Origin: Erysipelotrichaceae bacterium
GTDB lineage: Bacteria > Bacillota_I > Bacilli_A > Erysipelotrichales > Erysipelotrichaceae
Assembly (NCBI GenBank): GCA_028723085.1
Contig: JAQYFP010000068.1
Span: forward strand, 1-34,076
DNA length: 34,076 nt
Direction: 5' to 3'
The notes below the pieces were generated by a model. The model did not search any database. It saw only the letters and a program-made list of their open reading frames with translations, and was not told the origin of the DNA. Position numbers and translations under genes: made by a program. Shown here one piece after another: positions 4,924 to 25,138 of the stretch; the first letter of the stretch is position 1, and each line of letters opens with the position of its first letter.

Positions 4924-5835
4924 ATGAATCTTGATACCATCGCAAAGAAAATAAATGCGAATAAAAATGTGATTGCGATATACGCAAAGAATTTATTAGA
5001 TGAATTTAAAGACTATGACAAAGAGACAATTAAAAAATGTATTGAATCAATCGAAGTAGATTCCAATATGATTGTTGGATACAATACCGAAATCAATCTT
5101 AAAGGAAAAATCATTCTTGATTTATTAGTGGGTATTCGTGACCCAAAGACAAATGATTTAATTTATTTAAATATTGAAATGCAGGCAACCGAAAAGAAAT
5201 TGGATTATCCCATTGAGAAAAGAGGAGAATACTATGGCAGTAATTTAATCGTGAATCAAAAAGATATCAACTTTAAAAACGATCATTATGAAGACATCAA
5301 AAAAGTGTATTCGATATGGATCATACTGGATTGTTTCCAATATCGAGATAAAAACAGTATTGTAGCTATAGACAAACATCCAAGAATCCTAACCGGAAAA
5401 CCAAATCTAATCAAGAAAAACTACGACAATCAAACCCAAATCTATATATTCATGGACGAAGAAAGCATCAATCAATGTGAAGAAGAATATAAAGAAGTGA
5501 TTATGATTATCTATGAATTATTTATTCAAAAACAGGACCTAACACAAAAGAAAGAGATATTATCAAAATATGGTATAATCGACATAGAAGAACAGGAGAT
5601 GATGACAATGTGTAATTTATCCTATTATTTTGAACTTAAAGGCGAAGAACGTGGACTAAGTCAAGGAATTGAAATTGGTCGCAGTGAAGGAATTGATATT
5701 GGTCGAACTGCAGAACGTAAAGAAACAATACAAAATCTAATGTCATCTTCTAATCAAAGTTTTGATAAAGTATATGATTTATTGAATTACGATGAAAATG
5801 AAAAAGAAAAGTATCGTAAACTTATAGCCAACTAA
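4924..5835 (+). CDS. Rpn/YhgA-like PD-(D/E)XK nuclease family protein
   Basis: 303 residues of the Rpn/PDDEXK_2 family (recombination-promoting nuclease/putative transposase-like). The core is visible as INLKGKIILDLLVGI (Asp) followed by YLNIEMQAT (the E-x-Q variant of E-x-K), then the helix PIEKRGEYYGSNLI. The C-terminus has short GIEIGRSEGIDIGR repeats typical of the family. SD AAGGAGG is 7 nt before the ATG. Its upstream DNA (TTTTTTTTCGAATTATATAATG) nearly matches that before the truncated Rpn remnant at 15224, so the two are paralogues. Confidence 0.85.
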   Translation: MNLDTIAKKINANKNVIAIYAKNLLDEFKDYDKETIKKCIESIEVDSNMIVGYNTEINLKGKIILDLLVGIRDPKTNDLIYLNIEMQATEKKLDYPIEKRGEYYGSNLIVNQKDINFKNDHYEDIKKVYSIWIILDCFQYRDKNSIVAIDKHPRILTGKPNLIKKNYDNQTQIYIFMDEESINQCEEEYKEVIMIIYELFIQKQDLTQKKEILSKYGIIDIEEQEMMTMCNLSYYFELKGEERGLSQGIEIGRSEGIDIGRTAERKETIQNLMSSSNQSFDKVYDLLNYDENEKEKYRKLIAN

Positions 5836-5840
5836 CAATA

Positions 5841-5873
5841 AAAAGATGGATTATTTTACTAGATCCATCTTTT
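5841..5873. terminator. Bidirectional terminator between the Rpn and MFS genes
   Basis: AAAAGATGGAT (5841-5851) pairs with ATCCATCTTTT (5863-5873). A/T tracts on both sides serve both converging genes; the hairpin overlaps the last codons of the MFS gene. Confidence 0.8.
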
Positions 5874-7044
5874 GTTCTTTTAAACCAAATTGTAAAATTA
5901 AAGCCGTGATGAATGATAAACTAGCACCTAATAAGAAAGGAGCATAAGAACCAACATATTCATATAAGAAACCAGCAATCACACTACTAAATAATAAAGC
6001 AATTCCTACTAATGTTCCGTGTAATCCTAACATAGTTCCTTTTAAGTATTTTGGACTGATTTCACTAATAAAGGCTTTTTCTACTCCAGCAATCATAGCT
6101 GTATAGAATCCATATAATACAAAGGCCAATAAAATAGATATTTTATTACTTCCTAGTCCAAATAATAAATAAACTAAAGAAAATAATAAATAACCTTTTA
6201 CTAATATACCTTTTCTTCCTTTTTTATCCGATTTCTTTCCCATGGGAATCGATAATAAAGAACACACTATATTATATATAAAATACAATAAAATCACATG
6301 CGTACTTGTATATCCAACATCTTGTGCTCTCAACAATAAAAATGAATTCGATGAATTTCCTAGTGTAAATAAAACAGCTACGAATAAATATAGTTTTAAT
6401 TGATTATCTAATTTATCTACATTTTTAAAGATGTTTTCTTTCTTGGTTTGAACTCTATTTTTATTTTCTTTGACAAAGATAAAGAAAAATAAAGCGATGA
6501 CAATAGGAATTATCGAAACAATAAATATCTTTTTATAAGAAGAAATAGAATCTCCAAAATATTTTAGAATCAAAAGCGATAATAAAATCCCAATCGCCGA
6601 TCCCAACATATCCAAGGCCTTATGAATACCAAAAGAAGTTCCTAAATTATCTTCTGTACTTTCCGCTACCATTACATCTCTTGGAGCCGTTCGAATTCCT
6701 TTTCCAAAGCGATCAATAACACGAGCAACTAATATTCCTACCCAACTAGTAGATACCAATAAAGCAATCTTATAAATAAAGCCTGTGCAATATCCACAAA
6801 AAGCTAATTTCTTTTTATTTTGATATTTATCCGAAATATAACCACTAAATACTTTTACTAAACTAGCTAAGCTTTCAGCAATTCCTTCAATAATTCCTAC
6901 ATTCGCAGGTGTTGTTCCTAATACTGCTGTTAAATACAAAGGAATAATGGGATAAACCATTTCCGATGAAATATCCGCAAAACAACTAATTAAACCCAAA
7001 AAGACAATATTTCTAAGTCCTTTATTCTTCTTTTCCTTTTCCAT
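5851..7044 (-). CDS. MFS transporter, possibly part of the Ni/Co-controlled unit
   Basis: About 397 residues with many hydrophobic segments. The loop RVIDRFGKGIRTAPRD is a strong family signature after the third or fourth membrane segment, and GLHGTLVGIALL and MGKKSDKKGRKG support an MFS exporter. The track starts at TTG 7050; ATG 7044 with GGGGTGAT upstream is preferred. It overlaps the end of the CDF gene by about 23 nt, so it is co-translated with it and falls under the same NiCo riboswitch. A role in metal or metal-complex export is inference from context. Confidence 0.82.
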   Translation of the reverse strand: MEKEKKNKGLRNIVFLGLISCFADISSEMVYPIIPLYLTAVLGTTPANVGIIEGIAESLASLVKVFSGYISDKYQNKKKLAFCGYCTGFIYKIALLVSTSWVGILVARVIDRFGKGIRTAPRDVMVAESTEDNLGTSFGIHKALDMLGSAIGILLSLLILKYFGDSISSYKKIFIVSIIPIVIALFFFIFVKENKNRVQTKKENIFKNVDKLDNQLKLYLFVAVLFTLGNSSNSFLLLRAQDVGYTSTHVILLYFIYNIVCSLLSIPMGKKSDKKGRKGILVKGYLLFSLVYLLFGLGSNKISILLAFVLYGFYTAMIAGVEKAFISEISPKYLKGTMLGLHGTLVGIALLFSSVIAGFLYEYVGSYAPFLLGASLSFITALILQFGLKEQKMDLVK

Positions 7045-15223: not shown

Positions 15224-15300
15224 ATGAACAAACATGAAACAAAAGAATTAGATGTCATAGCTAAAAAGATTAATACCCATAAAAGTATCGTTTATATTTC
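15224..15300 (+). pseudogene. Rpn/PD-(D/E)XK gene remnant cut after about 25 codons
   Basis: The start ATG with SD GGAGG and a promoter region close to that of the intact Rpn gene at 4924 remain (TTTTTTTCGAATATATATAATGG at 15191-15212). LDVIAKKINTHKSIVYIS aligns with LDTIAKKINANKNVIAIYA of the intact gene. After about codon 25 the frame enters DNA that on the other strand encodes a relaxase, so the gene was broken by insertion or deletion. No remaining Rpn sequence appears to the right. Confidence 0.8.
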
Positions 15301-15522
15301 GGCAGAGTCCCAAAGTGTTGCTCTGTCAAAATATTCGGGTGGGGCATTTGTCGGAAGCATGATTTCTGTATAAACGACTTCCTTTTGCTTTCGGTGGTGA
15401 TCTTTGTTTTTCTGGTCGTACTCGGAAAACAGTTTTTCTTCGGCTTGATAGTTAGCTCCGGCAACCGCAGAACTGCCTTTGCTTCTCTGAACAATTCGTA
15501 TGTTCAGATGGGGTACTGGCAT
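15300..15522 (-). pseudogene. MobA/MobL (MobQ) relaxase, N-terminal fragment
   Basis: From ATG 15522 (AAAGGAG 9 nt upstream) about 74 residues match the start of MobA/MobL plasmid relaxases: PHLNIRIVQRSKGSSAVAGANYQAEE with the opening catalytic region, and LPTNAPPEYFDRATLWDSAE. The reading frame then ends at the junction with the Rpn remnant. The catalytic Tyr/His domain is incomplete, so it cannot nick DNA. It marks the left end of an acquired plasmid- or ICE-derived segment. Confidence 0.82.
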
Positions 15523-15557
15523 TTTCATCAACTCCTTTCGCAATAATGAATAAAACA

Positions 15558-15590
15558 AAAGGCACTAACTTTTTTACTGTTAGTGCCTTT
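15558..15590 (-). terminator. Perfect 12-bp inverted repeat, probable minus-strand terminator
   Basis: AAAGGCACTAAC (15558-15569) and GTTAGTGCCTTT (15579-15590) pair perfectly. On the minus strand the stem is followed by TTTTGTTTTATT, as expected for a terminator of the hydrolase transcript before the relaxase. Confidence 0.7.
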
Positions 15591-23738: not shown

Positions 23739-23818
23739 TTTAAATGCTCCTTTTCTTTTATTTAATTTGATATTTCTTTATCGTGTAAATGCCACCATTT
23801 CTATCATCTCCTTTATTT

Positions 23819-23860
23819 CTTATTCCGAAAAAGTGAAAAAAATTCAAATTGTCGGAATAA
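23819..23860. repeat. 42-bp palindrome, copy A, directly after the DUF4143 ATPase stop codon
   Basis: CTTATTCCGAAAAA...TCGGAATAA. It matches copy B at 25069-25110 in 39 of 42 positions in the same orientation. TTATTCCGA pairs with TCGGAATAA, with an inner TGAA/TTCA. It ends one base before the ATPase stop codon on the minus strand. Confidence 0.9.
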
Positions 23861-25042
23861 CTAGTTTGTAAGTAACCATCTTTCAATATCAATAATTTGT
23901 ATACCTTCGTATTGATATTGTTCATGATGCGTATTAGCTAATAATATTTTAGGATAGTTGTCTTTGATTTGTAGTAGTGAAGATACTTCTCTTTCGAATG
24001 TCTTTTCATTTGTGATGTCATCACTGACTTGAATATATATTTTCTCACTTTGTTTCATCGCAACAAAATCTACTTCTTTTTTATATAGTTTTCCAACATA
24101 TATTTCATATCCTCTTCTTAACAATTCAATCGCAACGATATTTTCATATATTCTTCCATAGTCCATATTTCTTGTACCAATGTTGGCATATCGAAAAGAA
24201 TGATCTGTTAAATAGTATTTGTCATTGGTAAACAAGTATTTTTTTCCTTTAATATCATAGCGACGTACTCTATAGAATAAAAACGCATCTGTAAAGTATT
24301 TCATATACAATTTAATTGTTTTGTCACTGATATTAAAATTAGCTTTTTCTATTGTTTTAGAAATACTGCTTGCAGATGTTAGCGCACTTACGTTATCCAT
24401 CATAAAATAAGCTAAATCTCGTAGTATTTCTTTATTTCTCATAGCGTGTTTACTTGTGATATCTCTAATAATAAGTGTTTCAAATATATCACGGATGTAT
24501 TTGTACTTTTCGTTTCGTTCTCTATAGACAAATGATCCTGGCATTCCGCCTTCTAAAACGTATTTTTCTAAAGTATATTCGTTTCCATAGTATTCCACAC
24601 ATTCGGAATAAGAAAATGGAAATATTTCTATTTCATAGGTTCTTCCTGTAAATAGGGTTGCCAAATCACTGCTTAATAAAAAGGCATTGGAACCAGTAAT
24701 GTATATGTCATATTTTCTACTATTATGAAGACTATTAATGACTTTTTCAAATCCTTCGCACATTTGAACTTCATCAATGCAAACATAATTATTTTTAGTG
24801 GGGTTGTAACAATTATTAATGTAATTGTTTAAGGCATGGTATTCCAAGTATGGTTCACTGTCCAATGAATTGAAGTCAATAAAAATGATATTCGCATTGG
24901 CATCGTTTTGTTTAAGATATTCCATGAACTGCATCAATAAAAAGCTTTTTCCTGATCTTCGAATTCCTGTAATTACTTTTATATCAGGAGTTCCTAATAC
25001 GTTAATCATTTTTTGTAGGTAATTTCTTTGTATTATTTTCAT
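23861..25042 (-). CDS. AAA_14/DUF4143 ATP-binding protein
   Basis: 393 residues. Walker A GIRRSGKSFL (residues 26-35), Walker B YVCIDEVQ, sensor region IYITGSNAFLLS, then the DUF4143 C-terminal domain (YLTDHSFRYANIG... IYENIVAIELLRRGYEIYVGK... EVDFVA... IQVS). This part resembles a PD-(D/E)XK nuclease fold with E-VDF and Q in place of K. Such proteins are widespread, variable in copy number and functionally unclear. SD GAGG precedes the ATG; a TATAAT lies between the gene and palindrome B. The gene is bracketed by two copies of the 42-bp palindrome. Confidence 0.88.
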   Translation of the reverse strand: MKIIQRNYLQKMINVLGTPDIKVITGIRRSGKSFLLMQFMEYLKQNDANANIIFIDFNSLDSEPYLEYHALNNYINNCYNPTKNNYVCIDEVQMCEGFEKVINSLHNSRKYDIYITGSNAFLLSSDLATLFTGRTYEIEIFPFSYSECVEYYGNEYTLEKYVLEGGMPGSFVYRERNEKYKYIRDIFETLIIRDITSKHAMRNKEILRDLAYFMMDNVSALTSASSISKTIEKANFNISDKTIKLYMKYFTDAFLFYRVRRYDIKGKKYLFTNDKYYLTDHSFRYANIGTRNMDYGRIYENIVAIELLRRGYEIYVGKLYKKEVDFVAMKQSEKIYIQVSDDITNEKTFEREVSSLLQIKDNYPKILLANTHHEQYQYEGIQIIDIERWLLTN

Positions 25043-25068
25043 GATTGATCCTCTTTTTTATTATATCT

Positions 25069-25110
25069 CTTATTCCGAAAAAATGAAAAAAATTCAAGTT
25101 TTCGGAATAA
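25069..25110. repeat. 42-bp palindrome, copy B, in the DUF4143 gene promoter
   Basis: Here the arms are perfect over 12 bp (TTATTCCGAAAA / TTTTCGGAATAA) with an inner TGAA/TTCA. It lies just upstream of the -10-like TATAAT of the ATPase gene, so it could be an operator. A half copy TTCGGAATAAGAAAA occurs inside the gene near 24603. Confidence 0.9.
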
Positions 25111-25138
25111 GAAAAAACTCGTCTTTTTTTGACGAGTT
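25111..25138 (-). terminator. Terminator of the ldh-yjiH operon
   Basis: On the minus strand AACTCGTC (25131-25138) pairs with GACGAGTT (25116-25123), followed by TTTTTTC. The hairpin begins within the stop codon of the last gene. Confidence 0.85.

Follow-up and report, generated by a model that had tools for sequence, protein, structure and literature searches.

Insertion sequences with an autoregulated transposase carry the promoter in one of their ends, and the protein binds both ends. RAYT genes, which encode HUH tyrosine transposases, are flanked by REPs in inverted orientation, and these REPs are dispersed in high numbers (PMC2817692). IS200/IS605 elements and palindrome-associated transposable elements (PATEs) have palindromes near both ends, and direct palindromic repeats allow a loss of the core by which a short remnant is left (PMC3119063). 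COG1373 is among the gene families that are most often shared between gut genera, with 19 gene variants (PMC10782964), which agrees with a mobile gene. DUF4143/COG1373 ATPases are widespread, and our literature search found neither a paper that links DUF4143 or COG1373 with a palindrome, nor a described function, binding site or mobile unit for the COG1373/AAA_14-DUF4143 family. The locus analyzed here provides such ATPases with a candidate DNA target, a putative recognition code, a putative regulatory site and a unit that is a candidate for movement.

The window, i.e. the complete 34,076-nt stretch of Erysipelotrichaceae DNA under study, appears to contain one copy of a discrete unit of ~1.3 kb that consists of a palindrome, a promoter, an ATPase gene and a second palindrome. 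As in the RAYT-REP system (PMC2817692), a single gene lies between palindromes, one of them directly past the stop codon, the gene copy number is low, and the palindrome sequence co-varies with the encoded protein. Unlike RAYTs, however, the unit protein combines AAA+, winged-helix and PD-(D/E)XK-like domains without any HUH/Y1 transposase domain, and the palindromes are in direct orientation and not dispersed. The unit shares with IS200/IS605 elements and PATEs the terminal palindromes and the direct repeats that allow core loss to a short remnant (PMC3119063), but it has no TnpA or TnpB, its single gene being of the AAA_14-DUF4143 type, its palindromes are outermost, and a code ties them to the ATPase. 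Like insertion sequences, it is a discrete unit with sharp ends that is found in unrelated sites and has empty sites, with the promoter in one end and the protein expected at both, but a DDE or HUH domain and multiple identical copies are absent, and a fixed short target duplication is not supported.

A palindrome pair brackets the ATPase gene

A repeat search identified two palindrome copies at 23814-23860 and 25064-25110, which are 91% identical over 47 nt, have the same orientation and are inverted repeats in themselves. Their 41-bp cores (23820-23860 and 25070-25110) differ at three positions, in good agreement with an earlier note that had counted 39 matches in 42 positions by inspection of the letters, and that had placed one copy at the stop codon and the other in the promoter: the downstream palindrome (P_D) immediately follows the stop codon, and the upstream palindrome (P_U) lies beside a TATAAT box (Table 1). 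P_U has the core TTCCG/CGGAA, ends 26 nt ahead of the ATG, and has a counterpart at the matching place in relatives. From its position and sequence, it is a candidate operator and a candidate outer left end of the unit, and P_D is the candidate right end. The -35 element of the window is weaker than that of most relatives.

The same note had proposed a search of the whole genome, and in the 1.89-Mb assembly (184 contigs, 91% complete), with up to three mismatches permitted, the palindrome occurs only as these two bracketing copies, while the reversed-sequence control gave 0 matches in the same search. Such a pair is not a product of chance, since an upstream palindrome score of at least 8.5 is reached by 72% of 96 homologues, but only by 12% of 594 other ORFs drawn from the same loci, and by 3% of shuffles.

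The note had also pointed to a half-site inside the gene. This half-site does exist at 24602-24616, where it coincides with the codons F-S-Y-S-E of a conserved protein motif, but it did not hold up as a site: the relatives L008, L037 and L038, whose palindrome type is identical or almost identical, have TTATAAAGAA or TTTTAAAGAA at this position. As these close relatives differ, the half-site is not conserved, we rejected a function as site, and from the sequence comparison it is a coding coincidence.

Table 1. Positions of the unit and its parts in the window.
Feature	Position	Strand	Remarks
ATPase gene	23861..25042	-	393 aa, AAA_14 + DUF4143 (COG1373-type)
Walker A	24944..24967	-	residues 26-33, GIRRSGKS
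Walker B	24770-24775	-	D90-E91
Winged-helix domain	24203..24445	-	residues 200-280, AlphaFold2 model
Turn and start of recognition helix	24311..24343	-	residues 234-244 (...F-N-I-S-D-K-T-I-K), columns most tied to palindrome type
PD-(D/E)XK-like C-terminal domain	23933..24160	-	residues 295-370, predicted models
P_U, upstream palindrome	25068..25112	-	45 bp, 20-bp arms, 5-nt centre, 90% complementary
P_D, downstream palindrome	23820..23860	-	starts at first base past stop codon of ATPase gene
-10 box	25060..25065	-	TATAAT, adjoins P_U, read from sequence
Terminator-like hairpin of upstream neighbour gene	25116..25138	-	AACTCGTCAAAAAAAGACGAGTT, ends beside P_U

The upstream palindrome overlaps the promoter

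A first set of homologues came from 146 related genomes. A second set came from a scan in which each species was represented by a single genome; from at least 569 homologues, the best 80 were taken, which makes this set non-random, and it consists mostly of metagenome-assembled contigs. Altogether, 96 loci including the window were compared, with protein identities of 50-78%. According to the record titles, these loci span Erysipelotrichaceae, Clostridia, Phascolarctobacterium, Paludibacteraceae, Synergistaceae and Riflebacteria. Most of them have a palindrome of 33-45 bp that ends about 12-45 nt ahead of the ATG, with the design (C)TATT-core-AAAA...TGAA...TTGATTTT-core'-AATA(G). A TTGANN-N16..18-TANNNT promoter is present within 80 bp upstream of the ATG in 69/95 relatives versus 44/576 other ORFs, with a spacer of exactly 17 in 66 of the 69. 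The TTGA falls inside the right arm of the palindrome, which therefore covers the -35 region, and this region is the usual place of a repressor site. The idea of a gene that controls itself through a site it binds, likewise raised in the earlier note, is thus supported, as promoter and palindrome overlap and the core varies together with the recognition helix (see below), and repression would be the expected outcome. Terminator-like hairpins precede 11/95 units versus 15/568 other ORFs.

Significant upstream palindromes are also found at 12 of 19 distant DUF4143 genes (L005, L006, L024, L026, L027, L029, L031, L034-L036, L163 and L164), where their design is different; upstream of L035 and L036, there are two copies of TTTCGA-TATAATCGAAA. 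Self-recognition may, judging from these upstream regions, be general to the DUF4143 family.

Predicted fold of the ATPase: AAA+, winged-helix and PD-(D/E)XK-like domains

Both Pfam domains, AAA_14 and DUF4143, score above their curated cut-offs, and Walker A and B motifs are present, of which G26, R29, G31, K32, S33, D90 and E91 are invariant in 55 homologues. The ATPase matches the PADLOC candidate defence model PDC-S01 with an E-value of 2.1e-144; the PDC models of PADLOC constitute a candidate class only. A sequence search against solved structures returned nothing for the ATPase. In the AlphaFold2 model, which has a mean pLDDT of 89, an AAA+ domain is followed by a winged helix, formed by helices 204-216, 224-233 and 240-252 and strands 256-263 and 268-278, and by an alpha-beta domain at the C terminus. 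The best structural matches of the whole chain are Cdc6/Orc1 and STAND ATPases, and the C-terminal domain, when folded alone, gave Foldseek matches to the Bax1 nuclease, archaeal Holliday-junction resolvases (Hjc), EcoRV and DdmD. According to these models, the C-terminal domain has a PD-(D/E)XK-like fold. All of the 55 homologues have E300, E323 and D325, and Q338 is almost invariant, but there is no lysine at its usual place, and a nuclease activity is therefore uncertain.

The genome of the window encodes three more full-length relatives (36-40% identity) and one fragment, none of them with the palindrome of the window, and two near-identical copies of a unit within one genome were not found in any of the genomes examined. 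The suggestion that such ATPases duplicate is therefore not borne out, as the copy number within genomes stays low.

The palindrome core follows residues 239-241 of the ATPase

The 4-bp core of the palindrome differs among protein clades and follows the protein tree, on which the palindrome type changes 25 times, versus 58 times with shuffled labels. We compared protein pairs of equal overall identity that have either the same or different cores, and the alignment columns with the largest excess difference were 241 (0.70), 236 (0.51), 158, 239, 88, 238, 141, 66, 92 and 234. Residues 234-244, at the turn and the start of the predicted recognition helix, account for five of the ten columns (hypergeometric p 1.4e-6, with relatedness ignored).

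In case of the core TCCC, residues 239-241 are NHK in 34/34 proteins. TACC goes together with NHV or NHI (V/I241 in 20/24), AGCC with HHT, HHN or NHT (T/N241 in 15/15), and GACC with SHN (3/3). The core TCCG is associated with SDK or TDK, and the cores TCGC, TCGA or ACGC with NDK or NDR, NDR being found with TCGC. The protein of the window, with S239-D240-K241, is paired with TCCG. D240 is present with 12/13 cores that contain CG versus 0/77 CC cores, and the sole exception, L037, has the core TCCA and N240. Of the labels behind these counts, 13 were assigned manually, from the left arm if the right arm was decayed or the automatic label was wrong. Automatic labels, which are blind to the protein, gave TCCC-NHK in 26/26, TACC-NHV/NHI in 9/9, AGCC-HHT in 8/8, TCCG-(S/T)DK in 5/5, GACC-SHN in 2/2 and TCGC-NDR in 2/2, counting the classes that were read in frame, as the remaining classes were mostly terminator hairpins or frame offsets.

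Core and residue switch together in the sisters L104 and L107. Independent switches are few (L104/L107; L037 versus L003, L008 and L038; L059 and L083 as distant loci with TCCG), and a formal independent-pairs test has too few pairs for significance. As far as aligned sequences can tell, there are hardly any exceptions to the agreement between the core and the three residues (239-241) where the recognition helix starts. Direct recognition by the winged helix predicts just this pattern, and because the core follows these residues, the ATPase very probably binds its own palindrome. The code can be tested by changes of one or two residues.

Most pairs of related units align within the unit only

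When all loci were compared with each other, 132 pairs had 82-100% nucleotide identity. In 111 of these, the alignment is limited to a segment that starts at -140..-60 upstream and ends at -20..+60 downstream, and 8 of the 13 pairs with at least 95% identity are confined to the unit. The cassettes of L040, L042 and L043, which are assigned to Eubacterium, Clostridium and Roseburia, are 96-97% identical in unrelated surroundings, and their common sequence reaches from the outer edge of P_U to the stop codon or to the downstream palindrome, and not beyond. A cassette of repeat, gene and repeat, as the earlier note had envisaged, is well reflected in these alignments. The ends are sharp in unrelated sites, and the right end varies between copies. 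The first downstream gene is a singleton in 64 of about 81 loci, and as first downstream genes are nearly all different, a conserved cargo gene was rejected. A phage or plasmid as main vehicle was also rejected, with scattered matches only, at <60% identity.

A downstream palindrome of the same type as the upstream palindrome was detected in at least 22/94 loci versus 6/618 controls, and decayed ones are readable in many more loci. In the closest relatives of the window (L008, L037 and L038), the downstream palindrome is decayed or absent, as in many units. Downstream copies decay where upstream copies persist, which suits a site for movement rather than a site for expression. In six loci (L048, L049, L054, L088, L089 and L110), the downstream palindrome has GGATA(G/A) as its right arm, regardless of the unit's own type.

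Outside the palindromes, 13/87 units are flanked by direct repeats versus 2/341 other ORFs. These repeats are about 27 to 130 bp long and often include the 3' end of the upstream gene or a terminator. As they vary in length and one of them, the 109-bp repeat of L105, is dispersed in its own genome, we do not claim a fixed-length target duplication. The L105 repeat (5814-5922 and a downstream copy) lies on both sides of the unit, has inverted ends and is present in several more copies in that genome, and a small mobile repeat thus seems to be associated with the ends of this unit. For L112, with its argH duplication, the lack of conservation around tRNA-argH leaves no empty site for comparison. 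At L041, L067, L039 and L046, common stretches end 0.8-1.6 kb past the ATPase stop codon in the conserved sequence GTGCGTAGCCAATTTCTCCGAAATTGTTAAAGGG(G/T)TTGGGATGTTTCCCAACAAG, which may be where a different mobile element has its right end.

Empty sites and solo palindromes

For the site of the window itself, a synteny comparison gave no empty counterpart, as none of 98 relatives shows synteny for the upstream transporter gene. Two other loci permit the comparison. At purC, L053 has the order purC end, palindrome, ATPase, purC end, palindrome; G173 has the purC end followed by one palindrome, the only one of its kind in that genome, and by the next gene, with no ATPase; and G160 has the same neighbours with neither palindrome nor ATPase. 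At groEL, the unit of L116 sits between two copies of a terminator. In G446 and G453, the terminator is single and the unit is absent, and G436 has a single terminator together with a solo palindrome of another type, AGCC. Sites with a single repeat and no ATPase, which the earlier note had proposed to look for, were thus found at purC (G173) and at groEL (G436). From the arrangement of these sequences, solo palindromes may be scars of unit loss by recombination.

The downstream palindrome of L116 has a left arm of type TCCC and a right arm of type AGCC, which hints at an exchange with a resident palindrome. L103 and L113 also have mismatched arms, but their recognition residues match the outer arms, and a decay of the inner arms therefore explains these cases too, so that L116 and the solo AGCC palindrome of G436 alone still point to an exchange inside the palindrome. 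L103 and L113 are orthologous, with 2.2 kb of upstream sequence and the ATPase in common, and have different genes right after the downstream palindrome; this point, 52 bp past the stop codon, looks like an insertion hot spot.

A model for the unit, and its alternatives

The co-variation strongly supports a recognition of the own palindrome by the winged helix of the ATPase. A dimer would then bind with one protein copy per arm, and at P_U, over the -35 region, it would most likely repress its own gene. The protein presumably acts at both ends. The available sequences further support a model in which a unit with palindromes as its end marks entered unrelated sites of many bacteria, and in which its loss can leave a solo palindrome. 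Most likely, the ATPase itself takes part in the movement, by synapsing or cutting the palindromes, perhaps in the form of hairpins or cruciforms. This hypothesis has to cope with the fact that near-identical copies within a genome, as they would be expected for an active transposon, do not occur in the genomes examined, that the downstream palindrome of many units is decayed or absent, that the flanking direct repeats are no fixed target duplication, and that the PD-(D/E)XK-like domain has no usual lysine; moreover, solo palindromes could also result from ordinary recombination between direct repeats. Altogether, we regard it as somewhat favoured by the sequence comparisons that the gene is autoregulated and that its recognition palindrome delimits a moving unit, with participation of the ATPase in the movement. 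The more far-reaching version, an autonomous single-gene mobile element whose sole protein recognizes both ends, moves the element and is retargeted via three residues, can be put forward only tentatively.

How else could the observations be explained? The palindromes could simply be operators of an autoregulated gene, the downstream copy being a second site, e.g. for DNA looping, and a gene that is useful to the host or serves defence could have spread by ordinary horizontal transfer, in which case the boundaries would be those of the gene with its regulatory region because nothing else is conserved. The operator position and the recognition code fit this explanation, as do the low copy number, the palindromes of the distant DUF4143 genes and the listing of the family as candidate defence system PDC-S01. 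However, at 96-98% identity, larger transferred pieces should have left common flanks, yet most of the highly identical pairs are confined to the unit. In addition, the downstream palindrome lies at the stop codon in many lineages and decays freely while the upstream one stays, unlike an operator for expression, and neither solo palindromes nor flanking direct repeats are predicted. Such pure autoregulation is therefore unlikely, albeit by no means negligible.

The unit could also be passive cargo that is mobilized via its palindromic ends by the enzyme of another element, such as a single-strand transposase of the IS200/IS605 type or a recombinase similar to that of integrons. The ends indeed resemble those of IS200/IS605 elements and PATEs (PMC3119063), and the mismatched arms of L116 and L103/L113 suggest an exchange inside palindromes, but the ends follow the recognition residues of the unit's own ATPase and not a common signal of a third party, which makes a foreign mobilizing enzyme improbable. 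That REP-like dispersed palindromes bracket the gene by chance is the least credible explanation and was rejected, as despite a length and structure similar to REPs there are only two copies in the own genome, related genomes have one or two, each with a unit or at its empty site, and the palindrome pattern gave 0 matches in 394 genomes of one order, although it is a pattern that recovers P_U in about 16/96 known loci as positive control.

If the ATPase does move the unit, AAA+/PD-(D/E)XK proteins would constitute a mobilization machinery outside the known transposase and recombinase families, and the unit might represent a novel type of mobile gene, one that marks itself. If it does not, the code still opens a large uncharacterized family to direct testing.

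Two further observations concern the window. Right after P_D, at 23797-23817 (- strand), there is a ribosome-binding-like AAAGGAG with the mini-ORF ATGGTGGCATTTACACGATAA, followed by the next gene, and the spacing from P_D to that gene resembles the spacing from P_U to the ATPase start. At 15292-15558 (- strand), an 88-aa ORF looks by eye like the N-terminal part of a MobA/MobL relaxase and is perhaps a remnant of a mobilizable element.
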